This document shows, in pieces, positions 741 through 27,176 of a stretch of 27,176 bases of DNA (position 1 is the first letter of the stretch; every line of letters begins with the position of its first letter). The position numbers were made by a program, and so were the translations under genes. Source of the DNA: a virus; IMG/VR virus record IMGVR_UViG_3300025889_018063, positions 1 to 27,176 of that record, one strand, 5' to 3'. Under the pieces are notes generated by a model that was given only the letters and a program-made list of their open reading frames with translations, searched no databases and was not told the DNA's origin.

Positions 741-1522
741 TCGTACAACCCGAGAGCGGATGGAACATCATAGATCCAGGCGAGTTTCCGTTCGACGAGA
801 ACATCCTCGCGGCAGTGCTCCTCGATCCGAGCCAGGTTTCCCTTGATCCAGTGCCGAGGAACCTGGGAGCCGTCATCCGTCTGCAGTTCGATCTTCCAGT
901 TCTTAGCTGCCTCGGCCTTCGACAGTCGACCGTTGACGGCACCGGGAGCGAACGGCATCAGATCCCAGTTAGCAGGACCGGACCAGAAGACGCGACCGTT
1001 GTAAGGTCGAGGAGCGTACCGCCGACGACCGGCCAGACCCCAGCGCCGCATCCTCGCATACAGCACTCGATAGTCGAACGCCGGACCATTCCAGGCCAGA
1101 AGACAAGGATCGAGCCCGTTCCGATGGTAGCGCTCGAGGTGCGCCTCCAGGGAGGCGAGAAGATCTCGCTCGTCCTGACCGCAGGCAGAAACGACCTCGC
1201 CGGCCGAGGCAGTTGTATGAATCGGCGCAACGGCCCAGGCAACGACTCGACATCGCCGAGGGTTGAGTGCCAGACGGAGATACTTCTCCTGGCACTCCTT
1301 CTGATGCTGATACTTCCCCTCGGCTATCGCGTAGTCGATTCGAGCCGTTTCCGAGGCCTCCCATCGCTCCGCTGCCTCCGACCCTGCCCGATAGTTACGG
1401 GGAAGGGTTCGGCGCTTAGGAGATACGAAGGGAGGATAAAATTCCTCCGGGATCGTGATCGGCGCATCGAACTCGAGAGTCTCCGGCACCGTTTCGATAT
1501 CGAGGACAAGCCCGTATCTCAT
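737..1522 (-). CDS. DnaQ-like (DEDD superfamily) 3'-5' exonuclease
   Basis: This 261-aa protein carries the three exonuclease motifs in order: ExoI LDIETV (D8, E10), ExoII AWNGPAFD (N145, D150) and ExoIII IEEHCREDV (D240). The layout resembles the stand-alone PolB-type exonuclease family that has no polymerase domain. In that family the general base position is usually Tyr (Y-x3-D); here it is His236 (H-x3-D), which is unusual for that spacing. The substrate would be single-stranded DNA 3' ends, in proofreading, end processing or recombination together with the ERF protein encoded divergently. The start at 1522 overlaps the upstream stop as ATGA. The superfamily assignment is firm; the exact subfamily is inferred. 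Confidence 0.85.
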   Translation of the reverse strand: MRYGLVLDIETVPETLEFDAPITIPEEFYPPFVSPKRRTLPRNYRAGSEAAERWEASETARIDYAIAEGKYQHQKECQEKYLRLALNPRRCRVVAWAVAPIHTTASAGEVVSACGQDERDLLASLEAHLERYHRNGLDPCLLAWNGPAFDYRVLYARMRRWGLAGRRRYAPRPYNGRVFWSGPANWDLMPFAPGAVNGRLSKAEAAKNWKIELQTDDGSQVPRHWIKGNLARIEEHCREDVLVERKLAWIYDVPSALGLYE

Positions 1523-1692
1523 GACTTCGGCTCCTCGGTCGCGAGTCCGCGAAGCACCAGGGCTCGGCAGGTTTCCCCAAGGGAGACGAGCCGCAGACCG
1601 GTGATGTCTTGAAGGTGCGCTCGATGCTTCTCGATGCGCTTCAGTTCCTCCGGCTCCACCCTGAGGATGATTCGTTTCTTCTCATCTGACAT
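1519..1692 (-). CDS. Small ribbon-helix-helix-like DNA-binding protein, 57 aa
   Basis: The start at 1692 was chosen because an AAGGAGG ribosome binding site lies just upstream and because the protein then begins MSDEKKRIILRVEPEEL. The pattern is a short basic beta strand (RIILRV), a helix (EELKRIEKHRAHLQDI) and a second helix (SLGETCRALVLRGL), which fits the ribbon-helix-helix fold used by small phage and plasmid repressors. It is the first gene of the leftward block and lies next to the divergent promoter region, so it could autoregulate that region. A longer version from 1782 is possible but would read through the promoter and lacks a binding site. Confidence 0.65.
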   Translation of the reverse strand: MSDEKKRIILRVEPEELKRIEKHRAHLQDITGLRLVSLGETCRALVLRGLATEEPKS

Positions 1693-1795
1693 GATGCCCT
1701 CCTTGCCCCAGGTGCTTACCATGCTGACGCCATTCGGCGCAACCGTTGACACGTTGCCGCTCCCTTGGTATGGTTGCGACATTCCTGGAGGAAAG
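1693..1795. promoter_or_regulatory. Divergent control region between the two early blocks
   Basis: This 103-bp gap separates the leftward RHH/exonuclease operon from the rightward ERF operon. It holds one good rightward promoter (see 1746-1774) and the ribosome binding sites of both flanking genes. A short inverted repeat GCAAC/GTTGC (1739-1743 and 1753-1757) overlaps the rightward -35 box. On the leftward strand only a poor match (TTGCGC, 17 bp, GTAAGC) is present, so the leftward promoter may be weak or use a phage factor. Confidence 0.6.
1746..1774 (+). promoter_or_regulatory. Sigma70-type promoter for the rightward block
   Basis: A perfect TTGACA -35 box (1746-1751) is followed by exactly 17 bp and a TATGGT -10 box (1769-1774, 4 of 6 consensus). 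Transcription would begin around 1781, giving a very short leader before the GGAGG at 1787-1791 and the ATG at 1796. Confidence 0.7.
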
Positions 1796-2500: not shown

Positions 2501-2750
2501 GGAACGCATCACCGAAACCCTGACCGGGATGGGATGGTCGACTCGCTGGCATGGTCCGGCATCTGAGCGCTGGCTCATCGCCGAGGCACCGGGCAGCCGA
2601 GTCCGCTTCTACGTCCTGCCGAACGATCGGCTCCGACTCGTGAAGATGGAGGGCGCCGGCACCGTTTCCCAGTTGCTTTCGCACATCGCCGATCTGAACG
2701 AGGCGCTGAGGGGAAACGAGACACTCGTGCTCGGCGAGGTGCAGCCATGA
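2487..2750 (+). CDS. Small hypothetical protein, 87 aa
   Basis: The start at 2487 overlaps the last codons of the ERF gene and has GGAG upstream; the protein begins METNEERITETLTGMGW. The middle alternates short strands (RWLIAEAPGSRVRFYVL, RLRLVKMEG) and the end is a helix (VSQLLSHIADLNEALRG), giving an alpha-beta-alpha outline. No catalytic residues or known family could be recognised. It ends in an ATGA overlap with the next gene, so it is co-translated with the recombination operon. Confidence 0.7.
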   Translation: METNEERITETLTGMGWSTRWHGPASERWLIAEAPGSRVRFYVLPNDRLRLVKMEGAGTVSQLLSHIADLNEALRGNETLVLGEVQP

Positions 2751-3037
2751 CACTCGAACGCATCGCCCTCGAGGCTGCAAAGCACGGCAGGGTTCTGTAC
2801 GGGTTTCGACGTGACACCCTCGACTGCATCGATCTTCTGAACGAGCTGGGCGGATCGGCAACAGTGCCACAGATGGCTCGGCACATCGGGAGCACGAATA
2901 CCGGCGCCGTACACCAGCGAATGCAGGGACTAATCACGAAAGGACTCGCGAAGCGGCAGGGTCGAGGTCTCCGCGGAGATCCGTTCCGGTTCCGGCTTAC
3001 CGCTGCCGGCAGGGCATTGCTCGAGGTGTCGGGATGA
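2747..3037 (+). CDS. Winged helix-turn-helix protein, 96 aa
   Basis: Residues about 25-90 look like a winged helix: DCIDLLNELGGSATVPQMA, a recognition helix region NTGAVHQRMQGLITKGL, then a basic wing (KRQGRGLRGDPFRF) and a last helix TAAGRALLEVSG. This is the outline of MarR/PadR-like phage regulators, though no specific family is recognised. It starts by ATGA overlap with the preceding gene and ends by ATGA overlap with the next. It is a candidate regulator of the repeated operators found downstream in this block; which protein binds them cannot be told from sequence. Confidence 0.65.
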   Translation: MTLERIALEAAKHGRVLYGFRRDTLDCIDLLNELGGSATVPQMARHIGSTNTGAVHQRMQGLITKGLAKRQGRGLRGDPFRFRLTAAGRALLEVSG

Positions 3038-3336
3038 CCGCGCAGGAGATCGCCAACGAGCTCGAGCGCCTTCGAGGGCTTGCCTTCAAGTTTGGATATA
3101 CCGCCGACGGTCGCGAGCTAATGGAGGGCCTGGCCTCTTTGATCGGCACTGTCCTGCGCGAGGCTGTGAACCATCGCTGCAACCGAGCCGAGAGCTGGTG
3201 GGAGCATGATGCGCAGGGCATCGAACTCTGCCGGGTTTGCGACTACTGCCAGGAGGTCAAGCTGCGCAGGTTCAGGCCGGAGATCCTGACCGGCTACACC
3301 CAGGCCGATGTCGCCGAACCCATCGAGCCAGGATAA
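3034..3336 (+). CDS. Small Cys-rich protein, possible zinc-binding, 100 aa
   Basis: The N-terminal two thirds are helical (IANELERLRGLAFKF; GLASLIGTVLREAVNH). The C-terminal third holds H-R-C, a Trp-Trp-Glu-His cluster and then C-R-V-C-D-Y-C, enough Cys and His residues for one zinc site. No named family was recognised. The ATG overlaps the previous stop as ATGA, and the TAA lies just before the palindromic operator at 3339, so this is the last gene of the first rightward operon. Confidence 0.6.
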   Translation: MTAQEIANELERLRGLAFKFGYTADGRELMEGLASLIGTVLREAVNHRCNRAESWWEHDAQGIELCRVCDYCQEVKLRRFRPEILTGYTQADVAEPIEPG

Positions 3337-3338
3337 TC

Positions 3339-3381
3339 GCAGATATCTGCAGATAACGGTCGACAGTTAACCGCGATCTGC
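3339..3381. promoter_or_regulatory. Operator copy 1: palindrome plus inverted repeat around a -35 box
   Basis: A perfect 12-bp palindrome GCAGATATCTGC (3339-3350) overlaps the left arm GCAGATAAC (3349-3357) of an inverted repeat whose right arm is GCGATCTGC (3373-3381). Arms start 24 bp apart and flank the -35 box of the promoter at 3360. The same geometry recurs at two other sites and, with 23-bp spacing, at a third. Confidence 0.6.
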
Positions 3382-3388
3382 GTATATT
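3360..3388 (+). promoter_or_regulatory. Promoter, operator-linked copy 1
   Basis: TCGACA (3360-3365), a 17-bp spacer and TATATT (3383-3388) match sigma70 boxes at 5 of 6 each. It lies about 25 bp upstream of the start of the 84-aa gene at 3412, with an AAGGAGG binding site between. Confidence 0.7.
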
Positions 3389-3411
3389 AGTCAGGAACCA
3401 AGGAGGCAGCT

Positions 3412-3666
3412 ATGTCGAGCGATACGATGGAGAAGATCGCCAAGTGCAAGAAGGCGATCCGGGAGGTCGAGGATTCGATGGACTGGGCCCTTCGGACTCG
3501 CGCGAAGGCGCTCGCTATCGGCGAGACCGAGATCGCGGATGCGCTGACCGGCATCGCCGACCGAATGAAGGAGCGCGCAGATCAGATCCGCTCGGACATG
3601 TATGCGCACTACTGCAACCTCGAAGGGCCGGATCTTCCGGACTGGTCGACCAGGGCCGGAGCGTGA
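3412..3666 (+). CDS. Small helical hypothetical protein, 84 aa
   Basis: A strong AAGGAGG site (3400-3406) precedes the ATG. The protein is almost all helix and charged: MEKIAKCKKAIREVEDSMDW, then RTRAKALAIGETEIADALTGI and ADRMKERADQIRSDMYAHY, consistent with a short helical bundle or coiled coil. No enzymatic motif or membrane segment is seen. It heads a second small operon driven by the operator-linked promoter, followed by an overlapping 81-aa gene and the methyltransferase. Function is unknown. Confidence 0.7.
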   Translation: MSSDTMEKIAKCKKAIREVEDSMDWALRTRAKALAIGETEIADALTGIADRMKERADQIRSDMYAHYCNLEGPDLPDWSTRAGA

Positions 3667-3908
3667 GCCGTCCGGTCACGAAGCTATCCAGGCTCACCGA
3701 TGCCTGGAACGCCGGAGATCTCATCGGCGCCCTTCGCATTGCGGCTCGGTTTCCCCGGCTCGGCGTGGAGGCAGATGCGATTCGCCGCGGATGGGATGCC
3801 TATCAAAACCCTCGCTTCTATCGTTCCATCGGTCGAGATCCTGAGGCCCTTGTGGCTGATGCGATCGCGGCTGTGGGGCGCCGATACCAACTCAAGGAGA
3901 CAGCATGA
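3663..3908 (+). CDS. Small hypothetical protein, 81 aa (GTG start)
   Basis: The GTG at 3663 overlaps the previous TGA (GTGA), which is why it is chosen over longer in-frame starts that would lie inside the preceding gene. The product begins VSRPVTKLSRLTDAWNAGD and is helical, with a tetratricopeptide-like flavour (LIGALRIAARFPRL, ADAIRRGWDAY) but too short for a confident repeat call. It ends in an ATGA overlap with the methyltransferase gene, suggesting the two are made together. No known function. Confidence 0.65.
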   Translation: MSRPVTKLSRLTDAWNAGDLIGALRIAARFPRLGVEADAIRRGWDAYQNPRFYRSIGRDPEALVADAIAAVGRRYQLKETA

Positions 3909-4813
3909 TTCAGAAGGACTTGTTTGGAAACGCCATCCAGCGCCGAGCACCTGGCAAGCTGGCGGATGAATGGGGAGCTTATCCCTTCACCGTCCTGAAT
4001 GCTCGTGAGGGCTGGTGGCAAGATCGGAAGCACGAATGGCAGAACTTCGGCATCCGTTCGGAGGTCGGTCGCGATGCGCCCTGCTACAATACGCACTCGA
4101 CTGAGTACATGACCGGAGCGCCGGAGGGTCATACCGGAACTTCGATCTTCGACCCTGTTCTTACTGAGCTGATGTATCGATGGTTCTGCCCTCCCGGCGG
4201 TCAGATCCTCGACCCCTTCGCCGGCGGTTCGGTTCGAGGCATCGTTGCCGCCTGCGAAGGCTACCGGTACCACGGAACAGAACTGCGACCGGAACAAGTG
4301 GCAGCAAACAGGATGCAACGGCACGAACTTCTGACCGCGGAACAGGCCGAACGTCTGCACTGGAGGACGATGGATGCTCGCGACATCGGAACGGAGGCAC
4401 CGGAGGCAGATTTGGTCTTCACCTGTCCGCCGTATGGAGATCTCGAGGTGTATTCCGACGATCCGCGAGATCTTTCGACGATGGACTATCCGCAGTTTCT
4501 TGCGGGGATGGAGGCCGCGCTTGGCGCTGCCGTTTCCCGGCTTCGCCGGCATCGGTTCCTCGTTATCGTCGTTGGCGATTTTCGCGACCGTCATGGTCTG
4601 ATGCGAGGCTTTACAACCGATACGGTAAACATCGGCCGGCGCCTTGGTCTGGGGCTGTACAACCAGGCGATCTTGCTAACCGCGGTCGGCACCGCGGCGA
4701 TGCGAGCCAACAAGCAATTCAGGGCATCGCGGAAGCTGTGCAAGATTCACCAGGACGTGCTTGTCTTCGTGAATGGAGATCCGCGCAAGGCAACGCAGGC
4801 GATCGGTGGCTGA
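3905..4813 (+). CDS. Orphan site-specific DNA methyltransferase (adenine-N6 or cytosine-N4 type)
   Basis: The 302-aa protein has the AdoMet-binding motif I ILDPFAGGS (residues 101-109), an acidic residue after the next strand (T-E126-L-R), and the catalytic motif IV TCPPYGDLEVYSDDP (about 173-187). Motif I precedes motif IV. The form CPPY-x-DLE-x-YS with DLS after it is typical of a subfamily common in phages and often paired with ParB-like proteins. The reaction is methyl transfer from AdoMet to an exocyclic amino group of A or C. No restriction endonuclease gene is adjacent, so the likely roles are protection from host restriction or control of packaging or transcription. The start has GGAGACAG upstream and ATGA overlap with the previous gene. 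Confidence 0.85.
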   Translation: MIQKDLFGNAIQRRAPGKLADEWGAYPFTVLNAREGWWQDRKHEWQNFGIRSEVGRDAPCYNTHSTEYMTGAPEGHTGTSIFDPVLTELMYRWFCPPGGQILDPFAGGSVRGIVAACEGYRYHGTELRPEQVAANRMQRHELLTAEQAERLHWRTMDARDIGTEAPEADLVFTCPPYGDLEVYSDDPRDLSTMDYPQFLAGMEAALGAAVSRLRRHRFLVIVVGDFRDRHGLMRGFTTDTVNIGRRLGLGLYNQAILLTAVGTAAMRANKQFRASRKLCKIHQDVLVFVNGDPRKATQAIGG

Positions 4814-4855
4814 ACGTCTGGACGAGCACTGCGATTGCTACCGATGAAGATATCT

Positions 4856-4888
4856 GCAGAAACCGGTAGACACCCTGCCGGGTTCTGC
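4856..4888. promoter_or_regulatory. Operator copy 2: inverted repeat flanking a -35 box
   Basis: Left arm GCAGAAACC (4856-4864) and right arm GGGTTCTGC (4880-4888) pair at 8 of 9 positions, with arm starts 24 bp apart. The -35 box sits between them and the -10 box begins two bases after the right arm. The left arm is part of a larger palindromic core ATCTGCAGA. Confidence 0.65.
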
Positions 4889-4895
4889 GTATATC
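4867..4895 (+). promoter_or_regulatory. Promoter, operator-linked copy 2
   Basis: TAGACA (4867-4872), 17 bp, TATATC (4890-4895). It serves the 97-aa gene at 4919. A 37-bp stretch from 4880 to 4916 (right operator arm, -10 box, leader and ribosome binding site) is identical to 5279-5315. Confidence 0.7.
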
Positions 4896-4918
4896 TGGTG
4901 TGTAGCAAGGAGACAGGC

Positions 4919-5212
4919 ATGAGCAACGGCATCTCGTCAGATTACTTCGATCGGTTCTGTCGTCATCTCGGCACCCTCGACGGTTTCGAGTTCGACCGGG
5001 TTTCTGAAGGAGTGCGCTCGGCGATCACTCCGACCCTCGACCTCTGGGCCACTCCCGGCTGGGACGGCCTCCCCGGCCTGCCCTGGTCGACCGAGGAAAA
5101 CGGCGATGTGCCAGACGTTGGCGATGAGCCTGTTCAGTGGACTGGCGATCTGGACAAGGACGCCGAGCTGTACAGATCCGCAGTCGCCAGAATCGTCGCT
5201 CGTCTCGGATGA
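4919..5212 (+). CDS. Small acidic hypothetical protein, 97 aa
   Basis: The start was placed at 4919 because of the AAGGAGACAG binding site and because earlier in-frame codons lie inside the promoter. The protein begins MSNGISSDYFDRFCRHLG and is acidic, with a Trp/Pro/Gly-rich middle (WATPGWDGLPGLPW) and a C-terminal helix (DAELYRSAVARIVARLG). A soluble, small phage-encoded host-interacting protein is plausible, since it has its own promoter and is acidic, but no family was recognised and this is inference. Confidence 0.7.
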   Translation: MSNGISSDYFDRFCRHLGTLDGFEFDRVSEGVRSAITPTLDLWATPGWDGLPGLPWSTEENGDVPDVGDEPVQWTGDLDKDAELYRSAVARIVARLG

Positions 5213-5254
5213 AGCCGAAGCAATCGACCGAACCGGGCAAGCCACAAGATTAAT

Positions 5255-5287
5255 GCAGAAACCCGTCGACATCCCGAGGGGTTCTGC
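5255..5287. promoter_or_regulatory. Operator copy 3: inverted repeat flanking a -35 box
   Basis: Left arm GCAGAAACC (5255-5263) and right arm GGGTTCTGC (5279-5287), arm starts 24 bp apart, exactly the geometry of copy 2. The sequence between the arms differs from copy 2 while the arms are kept, which argues that the arms are under selection. Confidence 0.65.
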
Positions 5288-5294
5288 GTATATC
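5266..5294 (+). promoter_or_regulatory. Promoter, operator-linked copy 3
   Basis: TCGACA (5266-5271), 17 bp, TATATC (5289-5294), about 22 bp upstream of the ATG at 5317. Boxes and spacing match copies 1 and 2. Confidence 0.7.
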
Positions 5295-5316
5295 TGGTGT
5301 GTAGCAAGGAGACAGT

Positions 5317-5706
5317 ATGCCCCGTTTCATTCGAGCACCTAAGGGACGCGCGCGCCAGGTCGAAGGTGCTGAGCATCATCCCTGGGCGATGCTCACCGGC
5401 AGCATCATCGGCTGCGCCTCGTGCTCGCACTGCGGCAGCGCGCTGGTTGCGAAGGCCGTCATCGATGACGATGGAAAGGTCTGGGGCGTTGACTGCTACG
5501 CAAGCGCTCATCCCGAGTGGAAGGCGCCGAAGGCCCGTAAGACCAACAGCAACCAGGAGGAGGCAAGCCTTCTTCGCCGGATCGCCAAGATCGAGGCTCG
5601 GTTTCCCGGTAGCATCGCCAAGGCCCGCTCGGGTCAGCGTGATGACCGGGCAAGCCGGACGATCGCCCGAGACTTGGAGACGCTTGCAATCATCGCGGCA
5701 GTTTAA
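5317..5706 (+). CDS. Hypothetical protein with Cys cluster, possible zinc ribbon, 129 aa
   Basis: Residues about 33-60 contain C-A-S-C-S-H-C-G followed some 20 residues later by D-C-Y-A-S-A-H, which could form a zinc ribbon or knuckle. The N-terminus is basic (RFIRAPKGRARQ) and the C-terminal half is a basic helix-rich region (EEASLLRRIAKIEARF; RASRTIARDLETLAIIAAV). This mix suggests nucleic-acid binding, but no named family is recognised. It has its own operator-linked promoter and an AAGGAGACAG site. Confidence 0.65.
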   Translation: MPRFIRAPKGRARQVEGAEHHPWAMLTGSIIGCASCSHCGSALVAKAVIDDDGKVWGVDCYASAHPEWKAPKARKTNSNQEEASLLRRIAKIEARFPGSIAKARSGQRDDRASRTIARDLETLAIIAAV

Positions 5707-5727
5707 CCATCGACCCTGGAGACAGAG

Positions 5728-6108
5728 ATGACTCACGAAGAAGTATGGAATGGCGAGATCGCCAGCCTGCGCAGCCAGGCCGAACGTCGCAGCGGCTGGG
5801 TTGTATGCACTCCGGATGCCTACCTGGCACTCATGGACTTCCGCAAGTCCTACCGGGCTGCGGTGCGACTGGACAAGCTGAACGGCACGAACCGAGCCGC
5901 CAGGTTCTCCCCGGACGCTTTGTGCTTAGGCCGAGTCTGCCGGAACCTCGATGAGTTCCGCACCTTCGACCAGGAGGAAGCCGAGCGGCTTCTTGGCCGC
6001 ATGGACTGGGCTCGCGAGCTTTCGGAGGACGGCTTCGTAGCCTGCACAATTCAGGAGATGGTCGAGCGCCGCGCAGCAGCCATCAGGGAAGAACAGCAGC
6101 TGGCTTAA
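5728..6108 (+). CDS. Hypothetical protein, 126 aa
   Basis: The gene starts 21 bp after the preceding stop with GGAGACAGAG before the ATG, and has no promoter of its own, so it probably shares the transcript of the 129-aa gene. The protein is soluble and mostly helical, with a central WVVCTPDAYLALMDFRKSY segment and a C-terminal helix (IQEMVERRAAAIREEQQLA). Three isolated Cys residues do not form an obvious metal site. Function unknown. Confidence 0.7.
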   Translation: MTHEEVWNGEIASLRSQAERRSGWVVCTPDAYLALMDFRKSYRAAVRLDKLNGTNRAARFSPDALCLGRVCRNLDEFRTFDQEEAERLLGRMDWARELSEDGFVACTIQEMVERRAAAIREEQQLA

Positions 6109-6120
6109 GAAAGATGCATT

Positions 6121-6162
6121 GTGCTGCAGATTCCAGTGGACTTTCACCGGTATCTGCAGCAC
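6121..6162. promoter_or_regulatory. Operator copy 4: extended inverted repeat
   Basis: A 14-bp arm GTGCTGCAGATTCC (6121-6134) faces GGTATCTGCAGCAC (6149-6162), matching at 13 of 14 positions around a 14-bp centre. It contains the same GCAGA-x-x-CC / GG-x-x-TCTGC core as the other three operators, with core arm starts 23 rather than 24 bp apart. A TATGAC box follows at 6163, but the -35 region (TGGACT, 20 bp away) is poor, so promoter activity is uncertain. As RNA it could also form a long hairpin. Confidence 0.65.
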
Positions 6163-6188
6163 TATGACTTCAGACAAGGGAGACAGAC

Positions 6189-6506
6189 ATGACCAAGGCA
6201 CGAATCCTCAGCGCAATCTCGAACAAGCACTCGGCTCGCACCAGCGAGCTGACCGAGGCGCTCGACCTGTCCAGCGCAACCGTCATCCGGCACTGCCGCG
6301 CACTTCAGAAGGATGGCTTCATCTTCTGCGAGGATGACTACGAGGGCCGGCAGCGGAAGGGCGGCAAGTACGCAGCAGCCCTCTGGTGCATGAACTGCGA
6401 GACCAGCGGCATCAGCGTCGAGCAGGCCAAGGCAGCCATGAAGATCGCGAAGGCCCAGGGCGCGAACGGTCGCGATGTGCTCTGCGATATGGACCTGGCC
6501 TGCTGA
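6189..6506 (+). CDS. Winged helix-turn-helix regulator-like protein, 105 aa
   Basis: GGGAGACAGAC precedes the ATG. Residues about 4-65 have the winged-helix outline: RILSAISNKHSARTSELTEAL, a recognition helix DLSSATVIRHCRALQKDGF, then a wing containing CEDDYEGRQRKGGKYAAALW. The rest (VEQAKAAMKIAKAQG, then a Cys-containing tail) is helical. The gene lies directly behind the best copy of the repeated operator, so autoregulation by this protein is an obvious hypothesis. It could equally be a structural DNA-binding protein; the binding target is not shown by sequence. Confidence 0.7.
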   Translation: MTKARILSAISNKHSARTSELTEALDLSSATVIRHCRALQKDGFIFCEDDYEGRQRKGGKYAAALWCMNCETSGISVEQAKAAMKIAKAQGANGRDVLCDMDLAC

Positions 6507-6606
6507 GCCAGCCGGGTAACGGTCGCACCCGAAGCGGCCGGCACTCCTACTGGAGCCCGTGCCTGCAGGGATGGCACACAGCCGAGGGGATCGGCCGGAG
6601 ACAGAC
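6507..6606 (+). other. 100-bp leader with competing short inverted repeats
   Basis: Between two small genes lie three alternating arms: GGCAC (6540-6544), GTGCC (6559-6563) and GGCAC (6573-6577). The middle arm can pair with either neighbour, giving mutually exclusive hairpins just ahead of the GGAGACAGAC binding site of the next gene. No promoter boxes are clear here. A leader with translational control is possible; chance is also possible given 5-bp stems in GC-rich DNA. Confidence 0.35.
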
Positions 6607-6843
6607 ATGAAGAAGCCGTATAAGTTCGCCCGCATTGGCGCAGGCAGCGCGACAGTGCTTGATCGCGCCAGTGGTGAGAAGGTTGGTCGGGTAAGGTATC
6701 GCGAGGAGAGATGGAATCTTCGGCGTGTCTACGTCTCTCGATTGTGGGAGGCTTACTCGCCCGATGGTCACAAGGTCACTGAGGCTGCCACTCGCGCAGA
6801 TGCTGCCCAGGCTCTCTGGAATCTCACGAAGGCGGCAGCATGA
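6607..6843 (+). CDS. Small basic hypothetical protein, 78 aa
   Basis: The ATG at 6607 follows CCGGAGACAGAC, so it is preferred to an in-frame upstream start inside the leader. The protein is basic and strand-rich (YKFARIGAGSATVLDR, KVGRVRYREERWNLRRVYV) with a C-terminal helix (TRADAAQALWNLTKAAA). It has no recognised motif. The last codon overlaps the start of a small membrane protein by ATGA. Confidence 0.65.
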   Translation: MKKPYKFARIGAGSATVLDRASGEKVGRVRYREERWNLRRVYVSRLWEAYSPDGHKVTEAATRADAAQALWNLTKAAA

Positions 6844-6998
6844 ATCCCGATTCAGCAGCCTGGCTCATCGGAGTCGCGACTGCCCTGGGCATCGCCTCGC
6901 TGAATATGCCTGGCGAGGATGCGGACGATCGACCCTGGCGGATGGGATCCTGCGCTGTGGGGTTCGTGATCTGCTCCGCTGCCTGGTGGCTTTCATGA
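6840..6998 (+). CDS. Small membrane protein, 52 aa, two predicted transmembrane segments
   Basis: This short frame begins at the ATGA overlap with the preceding gene and ends in another ATGA overlap with the next one, which supports it as a real gene despite its size. Residues about 6-21 (AAWLIGVATALGIASL) and 35-52 (MGSCAVGFVICSAAWWLS) are hydrophobic enough for two membrane spans, joined by an acidic loop (GEDADDRPW). Possible roles include a holin-like pore, a superinfection-exclusion protein or a host-membrane modifier; none is indicated strongly. Confidence 0.6.
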   Translation: MNPDSAAWLIGVATALGIASLNMPGEDADDRPWRMGSCAVGFVICSAAWWLS

Positions 6999-7378
6999 GC
7001 CGCCCTTGGCAGCCGTTGCCGGACCTACCCCAGCCAGGCATCGCATCAGATCGAGTCGTTGCCGAGGCTCATGGAGTCCACAGGCAGACGGTTATCGCCT
7101 ATCGACGCAGGAACGGCATCGAAGGAGGAGGCCAGCCCGGAAGACCAAAGGGCTCAGGCTGGAATCCGAAGCCGGACCCAGATCTGCCGATGCCAGGCGA
7201 GGCCCCAGATCATACGGTCGCGAAGGCGCATGAGGCGACTCCGACCCAGGTGCTTCGTTGGCGACATCGCCGAGGCATTCCTGCCTTTAACAGGAACACC
7301 TCGCACCCTTACGACGAGTGCGGATGTTCCGGCTTGGACTGTCCCTGCGCAGGACCGCCGGGTTTTCGGAAGCGTTAG
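6995..7378 (+). CDS. Tandem helix-turn-helix repeat protein with Cys-rich tail, 127 aa
   Basis: The start is the ATGA overlap at 6995. Two similar units follow each other: LPQPGIASDRVVAEAHGVH and then TVIAYRRRNGI (about 9-39), and LPMPGEAPDHTVAKAHEAT then QVLRWRHRRGIPA (about 58-89). Each looks like a short helix-turn-helix of the kind DxxVAxxHxxxxxxVxxxRxxxGI, joined by a Gly/Pro/Lys-rich linker, so the protein probably binds DNA at two adjacent half-sites. The end is Cys-rich (D-E-C-G-C-S-G-L-D-C-P-C), perhaps metal binding. It is the last rightward gene and overlaps the last leftward gene tail to tail. A regulator role is inferred. Confidence 0.7.
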   Translation: MSRPWQPLPDLPQPGIASDRVVAEAHGVHRQTVIAYRRRNGIEGGGQPGRPKGSGWNPKPDPDLPMPGEAPDHTVAKAHEATPTQVLRWRHRRGIPAFNRNTSHPYDECGCSGLDCPCAGPPGFRKR

Positions 7379-27078: not shown

Positions 27079-27176
27079 GTCTGCCTCCCGTCTTCACGTA
27101 ACGAACCAAGGCCGGCGATGCCGGGGAGCCTCCCCTTTTCCAGGAGGGGCGCGCGCGCGTGTTTCGTGAAACCTAC
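27079..27176. other. Right-edge leader with hairpins
   Basis: This 98-bp end holds the binding site of the first late gene, a hairpin CCGGC-GAT-GCCGG (27112-27124), a second C-rich/G-rich stem (CCCC...GGGG around 27132-27149) and an alternating CG run. No -35/-10 pair is clear. On the minus strand it is open in a frame that would continue the left-edge primase if the ends were joined, stopping at 27096-27094. Confidence 0.4.

Follow-up and report, generated by a model that had tools for sequence, protein, structure and literature searches.

The early region of the virus record IMGVR_UViG_3300025889_018063 raises the question of what four similar inverted repeats are for, and which protein may bind them. 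The window, that is, the whole stretch of DNA analysed here, is a 27,176-base record (61% GC) from a tailed phage. All four copies are intergenic, with 11-nt arms and a 10–11-nt centre. Three of them (c1–c3) are probably sigma-70-type promoters that share one operator, with the fourth (c4) as a further copy, and a dimeric winged helix-turn-helix (wHTH) protein of the phage would repress the short transcription units behind them. From the copies themselves, their constant geometry, their dyad symmetry and an analogous set in sister phages, all of which are seen in the sequence, we infer protein binding and repression. The four sites are as follows.

3335–3395, plus strand: cassette c1; core arms 3349–3359 and 3371–3381, centre 3365; -35 box TCGACA at 3360–3365; -10 box TATATT at 3383–3388; outer symmetry ATAT/ATAT.
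4842–4902, plus strand: cassette c2; core arms 4856–4866 and 4878–4888, centre 4872; -35 box TAGACA at 4867–4872; -10 box TATATC at 4890–4895; outer symmetry AGATAT/ATATCT, about 49 bp overall.
5241–5301, plus strand: cassette c3; core arms 5255–5265 and 5277–5287, centre 5271; -35 box TCGACA at 5266–5271; -10 box TATATC at 5289–5294.
6117–6167, plus strand: operator c4; 14-nt arms GTGCTGCAGATTCC (6121–6134) and GGTATCTGCAGCAC (6149–6162) with one mismatch; no good -35 box; directly upstream of a wHTH gene.

An earlier note on this DNA had placed the four sites correctly, as a re-scan showed, and the constant geometry that it described for the first three copies is borne out. The left arm begins 11 nt ahead of the -35 box, the -10 box begins 2 nt past the end of the right arm, and the promoter spacer is 17 nt. 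The palindrome is centred between the two boxes. With the transcription start assumed to lie 7 nt after the -10 box, the dyad centre is at about -30 and the dyad covers about -46 to -14; the outer symmetry extends this to about -54 to -6. A dyad spanning -35 to -10 is in the usual position for a repressor. Each of the three -35 boxes matches the consensus at 5/6 positions; the -10 boxes of c1, c2 and c3 match at 5/6, 4/6 and 4/6, the final T being absent in c2 and c3. Sigma-70-type hexamers 16–18 nt apart are therefore present in c1–c3, and a stricter sigma-70 scan reports c1 alone among the cassettes. The description of c4 in the same note, with longer 14-bp arms and a poor -35 box, also agrees with what is found: it has a -10-like TATGAC, a spacer of 20 nt, a -35 box at 4/6 and no good -35 box at 16–18 nt, and is not counted as a promoter here.

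The arm formula given earlier, GCAGA-NN-CC/GG-NN-TCTGC, holds for c2, c3 and c4 and has to be relaxed for c1, whose arms are GCAGATAAC and GCGATCTGC. It has these three matches in the window, as compared to 0.00 expected (100 shuffles). The looser pattern GCAGA-N14–30-TCTGC has five matches against 0.95 expected, and 1 of the 100 shuffles reaches five. The cassettes c1–c3 are not independent of each other, because they form a single 70-nt repeat family that extends through the ribosome-binding site (RBS), with identities to c2 of 71, 100 and 87%. A motif trained on c1–c3 gives c4 a score of 23.1 bits, compared to a maximum of 19.5 over 20 dinucleotide shuffles, and each of the four copies is recovered by a motif built from the other three. 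Copy c4 is thus independent support for the putative operator. An operator common among hosts is disfavoured, since the strict site pattern has no match in 84,980 prokaryote genomes. A scan of IMG/VR with the window-type site pattern gave two matches (L021 and L022), which were judged to be due to chance: there is no -10 box past the right arm, and each record has a single site.

The symmetry is longer than first described. Folding revealed a mirror relation between AGATAT on the 5′ side of the left arm and ATATCT at the -10 box. In c2 the dyad reaches about 49 bp and includes the -10 box, and a shorter part of this outer symmetry is kept in c1 and c3. The outer arm of c4 is different (CATTGTGC) and is likewise mirrored. 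Compared to shuffled sequences, c1–c4 fold with z scores of -2.7, -6.7, -5.3 and -5.9, respectively. The arms also change together. Position 6 is T/T in c1 and c4 and A/A in c2 and c3, position 10 is G/G or C/C among the copies with pairing kept, and a single arm position distinguishes c2 from c3, the left and right changes being complementary; the two cassettes are identical between the outer right arm and the RBS. The divergent c4 retains the arms, the centre GT-GAC and the spacing, whereas the remainder of the cassette is lacking. The true pairing of left and right arms is the best of 24 permutations among the copies, a coarse test (1/24) with only four copies, and this is weak evidence for possible selection on the symmetry itself.

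The comparison with other phages draws on terminase-based searches, which gave five sister records (G004–G008), with terminases 83–84% identical to that of the window, and, in addition, a near-identical record (G003) without the early region. The genes recognised in the window include terminase (phrog_2), tape measure protein (phrog_3336), an Erf annealing protein and a methyltransferase. The one match of the terminase among 50,697 phage records is weak and belongs to Rhizobium phage RHph_N3_2 (27% over 37%), so the group is essentially undescribed in that set. The terminase profile has no match in prokaryote genomes, and neither protein 5317 nor protein 6189 (named by their start positions) returned a relative when IMG/VR was scanned. 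Outside G005 and G006, the Erf profile finds distant phages at 41% or less. The relatives of the methyltransferase are other phages and were kept out of the synteny comparison. The window phage is small and uncultured, with a genome of about 30 kb and few HTH candidates.

The genes for Erf, a wHTH protein (wHTH2747) and a tandem-HTH protein are kept in the same order in G005 and G006, without gene 6189 and most of the intervening block. No GCAGA site was found in any relative at up to 3 mismatches. Instead, the relatives carry ACAACTTT-N7-AAAGTTGT, followed by a TTGCC-like -35 box, GCGTTATGTT and an RBS like GGAGACAG. This palindrome (AACTTT-N-AAAGTT) adjoins a -10 box of the GCGTTA type and a GGAGA(C/G)A RBS, ahead of variable small open reading frames (ORFs). 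The combination of palindrome and promoter has three copies in G005 (1475, 9191 and about 29,873) and two in G006, and G004 and G008 have a single copy apiece; the copies vary in quality. One of the relatives' copies is syntenic with c1, directly behind the wHTH2747 homologue. AACTTT-N-AAAGTT occurs twice in the first 20 kb of G005 (L036), against 0.00 expected. The phages therefore share an architecture but not an operator sequence, which turns over among them. The search of relatives for the arms had been proposed earlier as a test that could overturn the idea of an operator; the GCAGA letters are indeed absent, but the relatives bear another repeated palindrome at corresponding promoters, and the regulatory reading survives in this altered form. 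Differing palindrome letters between sister phages are expected of an operator whose regulator changed its specificity or was exchanged.

In the favoured reading, a dimeric wHTH protein encoded by the phage would bind the dyad over about -46 to -14 and block RNA polymerase at c1–c3. It would co-repress three short units, which contain the methyltransferase and small accessory ORFs, and would set its own level through c4. Relative to the sister phages, the operator sequence would have been replaced with the promoter layout retained. The repeated cassettes and the analogous multi-copy set in the sister phages lend good support to a putative phage regulon made up of several short units; this part of the earlier proposal, that one regulator co-ordinates several short transcription units, stands. 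Candidates for the regulator are listed below.

6189–6506, plus strand: wHTH protein 6189, 105 aa; HTH_24 (6e-7), MarR (1.3e-6) and HTH_5 (1.9e-6); directly behind c4; not in relatives.
2747–3037, plus strand: wHTH protein 2747, 96 aa; MarR proteins are the closest to its predicted fold; 40–41% identity in G005 and G006, with the syntenic promoter following.
6995–7378, plus strand: tandem-HTH protein, 127 aa; conserved in relatives.
1519–1782, minus strand: ribbon-helix-helix (RHH)-like ORF, as assigned earlier; divergent from the Erf gene; no match to a family.

All four had been named previously as possible binders, and two remain in the foreground. The most likely one is wHTH6189, a predicted winged-HTH protein whose gene directly follows c4 and is missing from the relatives, where GCAGA sites are likewise lacking; its predicted structure on its own is poor (pLDDT 48.5). 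The next is wHTH2747 (MarR-like predicted fold, pLDDT 80, best Foldseek E value 1.6e-3). It is kept beside the syntenic promoter in the window, G005 and G006, and the start of its putative recognition helix differs, TNTGAVHQR versus SNWSNWIQR. The tandem-HTH protein is less likely, because it is conserved at 53–55%, including the first recognition helix, in phages with wholly different operators. The RHH-like protein is left as a lesser candidate; its own divergent promoter region (TTGACA-17-TATGGT, 1746–1774) has no GCAGA operator. In this Erf/RHH-like divergent region (1720–1795), the good promoter is overlapped by a short dyad, GCAAC-N9-GTTGC, the relatives having GCTACC-N11-GGTAGC; this dyad may be a distinct operator used by the RHH-like protein.

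The units that would be controlled, and their RBS, are as follows.

3402–3409, plus strand: RBS GGAGGCAG of the first unit; GGAGACAG is found at c2 (4909), c3 (5308), c4 (6179) and several other genes.
3412–4813, plus strand: unit behind c1; o3412 (84 aa), o3663 (about 81 aa) and DNA methyltransferase 3905–4813 (phrog_12517 2.8e-92, phrog_498 4.3e-67).
4919–5212, plus strand: unit behind c2; a single ORF of 97 aa with no family match.
5317–6108, plus strand: unit behind c3; ORF 5317–5706 (129 aa, with a few Cys) and ORF 5728–6108 (126 aa), neither with a family match.

The RBS is general to the phage and not part of the operator, since it is also found at several genes that lack an operator. 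The methyltransferase is an orphan enzyme; its matches are distant and spread over phages of many hosts, reaching 58–60% in cyanobacterial phages. The sequence CTGCAG overlaps three operators, c1, c2 and, twice, c4 (3347, 4854, 6124 and 6154), and has 11 occurrences in the window. Methylation of the operator by the 3905 enzyme through CTGCAG was considered and dropped, the target of the enzyme not being established.

Several observations weigh against repression through a shared operator. The -10 boxes of c2 and c3 are weak and c4 has no clear promoter. The shared ancestry of c1–c3 means that three copies are not three independent events, and the operator is known from one phage genome only, record G003 lacking this region. 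The relatives' palindrome sits immediately upstream of the -35 box, touching it instead of lying across it, and one arm is degenerate in G006a, G005a and G004. Repression is for these latter reasons not the sole reading; the mode of regulation may differ in the relatives, and activation is possible there or at c4. In a more general form, the dyads would all be activator sites, where a phage protein at or beside a weak -35 box recruits RNA polymerase for a middle-early class of genes. The imperfect -35 boxes (5/6, and 4/6 in c4), the 4/6 -10 boxes of c2 and c3, the upstream position next to TTGCC-like -35 boxes in the relatives, and the poor promoter of c4 despite its location ahead of a regulator gene are consistent with this. 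However, the dyad in the window lies over the stretch from the -35 box to the -10 box, a position in which an activator and sigma would compete, and c1 is already a good promoter unaided, which makes general activation unlikely.

It is quite improbable that the palindromes are RNA hairpins in read-through transcripts, with a role in processing, pausing or stability, rather than operators. All four sites do fold better than shuffled sequences, and the arms co-vary with pairing kept (positions 6 and 10, and the outer arm of c4), but any DNA palindrome folds, and the best-of-24 result comes from a coarse test. Moreover, the right arm is at a fixed distance from the -10 box, the scan found no T-tract terminator, there is no Rfam match, and several of the relatives' copies (G006a and G004) have a degenerate arm. 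Least probable is that the repeats are recent duplications of a promoter–RBS segment that arrived with accessory genes, the palindrome now having no regulator. The stretch of identity that c2 and c3 share (outer right arm through RBS), the single 70-nt family and the resemblance of the relatives' promoter–ORF–terminator inserts to morons point in this direction. The complementary difference between the arms of c2 and c3, the retention of arms, centre and spacing by c4 without the remaining cassette, and the recurrence of unrelated palindromes at corresponding sites in the relatives argue against it.

The nearest known system is the extended start-associated sequences (ESAS) of cluster K mycobacteriophages (TM4, Adephagia), intergenic imperfect inverted repeats with a SigA-like promoter, located above a conserved RBS-like sequence and ahead of small non-structural genes, with a consensus that varies by subcluster (PMC3203893, PMC11373665). 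Adephagia has seven copies with a promoter spacing of 17–18 nt, for which its authors suggest repression, by a regulator unlikely to be the immunity repressor (PMC11373665). The window shares with ESAS the several intergenic imperfect inverted repeats per genome (here four) with a short variable spacer, and a promoter (17-nt spacer) and RBS ahead of small genes. There are clear differences, however. The repeats located in the Adephagia genome have arms TTGACATGCATACAG-N11-CTGTATGCATGTCAA of 15–17 bp that themselves contain the -35 and -10 boxes. In comparison, the core arms in the window flank the -35 box and end 1 nt before the -10 box, which is reached by the weaker outer symmetry alone. ESAS has the SAS sequence GGGATAGGAGCCC at the RBS, whereas the window has GGAGACAG or GGAGGCAG, also at operator-less genes. 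The window phage is not a cluster K phage (its terminase is a near-orphan), no sequence similarity was noted, and the operator letters of its sister phages are wholly different, while ESAS subclusters differ at few positions. Adephagia has an integrase and a repressor; the corresponding lambda-like immunity set (integrase and CI-like HTH_3 repressor) is not found in the window, G004, G005 or G006, where no match to Phage_integrase, Resolvase or HTH_3 was over the cut-off, and the left part of the window may be missing. Because these features of sequence and placement differ, the system is kept outside ESAS proper, as an ESAS-like variant.

SAS/ESAS-like motifs are also known in unrelated phages, those of Microbacterium: in the excerpt of PMC7302621 used here, the ESAS of cluster EF is weakly conserved and centred on GTAGAG, and cluster EG has 18-bp inverted repeats, GATCAACCNNGGTTGATC, 14–22 bp ahead of the start codon. 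As in the window, that excerpt describes repeated start-linked motifs, short intergenic gaps and no integrase or repressor found, but it ties neither motif to a promoter. Cluster O mycobacteriophages (Corndog) have 17-bp palindromes in more than 30 copies, many within genes and mostly off promoters, which are likewise repeated dyads thought to bind a dimeric phage protein, with several HTH candidates (PMC4351075). In contrast, none of the four copies in the window lies within a gene, and three keep a fixed position relative to a promoter.

Phage morons are inserts composed of a promoter, an ORF and a terminator. The relatives have a similar element by the terminase, on the opposite strand, in which one variable ORF has a promoter to itself and is followed by a terminator-like hairpin. 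Here, however, several units per genome share one operator, and common control is therefore suggested. In four sister records, one such predicted promoter lies ahead of the ORF and hairpin, between terminase and the neighbouring small gene (L036/L037 of G005, about 29,870–30,210; also L039, L034 and L041). The cargo is 56–162 aa and differs among phages, with only partial relatedness, between G006 and G008; the window phage has no insert there.

Repeated promoter-operators of the ESAS type are already known, from cultured actinobacterial phages with no regulator found; the window, with a palindrome of its own and sister phages that keep the layout under another palindrome, adds a variant to this kind. 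The same design is present here in a genome of about 30 kb, where sister phages with a different operator provide a natural comparison, which leaves one or two proteins as likely regulators. Through the shared cassette, variable small ORFs, including the relatives' terminase-side inserts, also stand out as a putative co-regulated accessory set with possible anti-host-defence roles. A broader proposal, which we regard as tentative, is that each phage has its own operator code: palindrome and regulator specificity would be swapped together across the regulon with the layout kept, and accessory genes would be plugged into the cassette, in an apparently non-temperate lineage. If true, such a code would have the effect of heteroimmunity in the absence of lysogeny and would keep the accessory regulons of sister phages apart during co-infection.

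The right end of the window (27100–27176) and G003, G004, G005, G007 and G008 all stop at one place upstream of the terminase genes (ends of L033, L034, L037, L040 and L041), which is probably the physical end of the genome. The terminase strand begins there with GTRGRTTTCAC or similar, then CGCGCGCGC. G005 begins with AAATCCAC, 8 nt that are also present at its end. G006 (L039, about 6000–6869) runs past the common end into a gene that by eye resembles queC (7-deazaguanine synthesis), possibly a DNA-modification gene.

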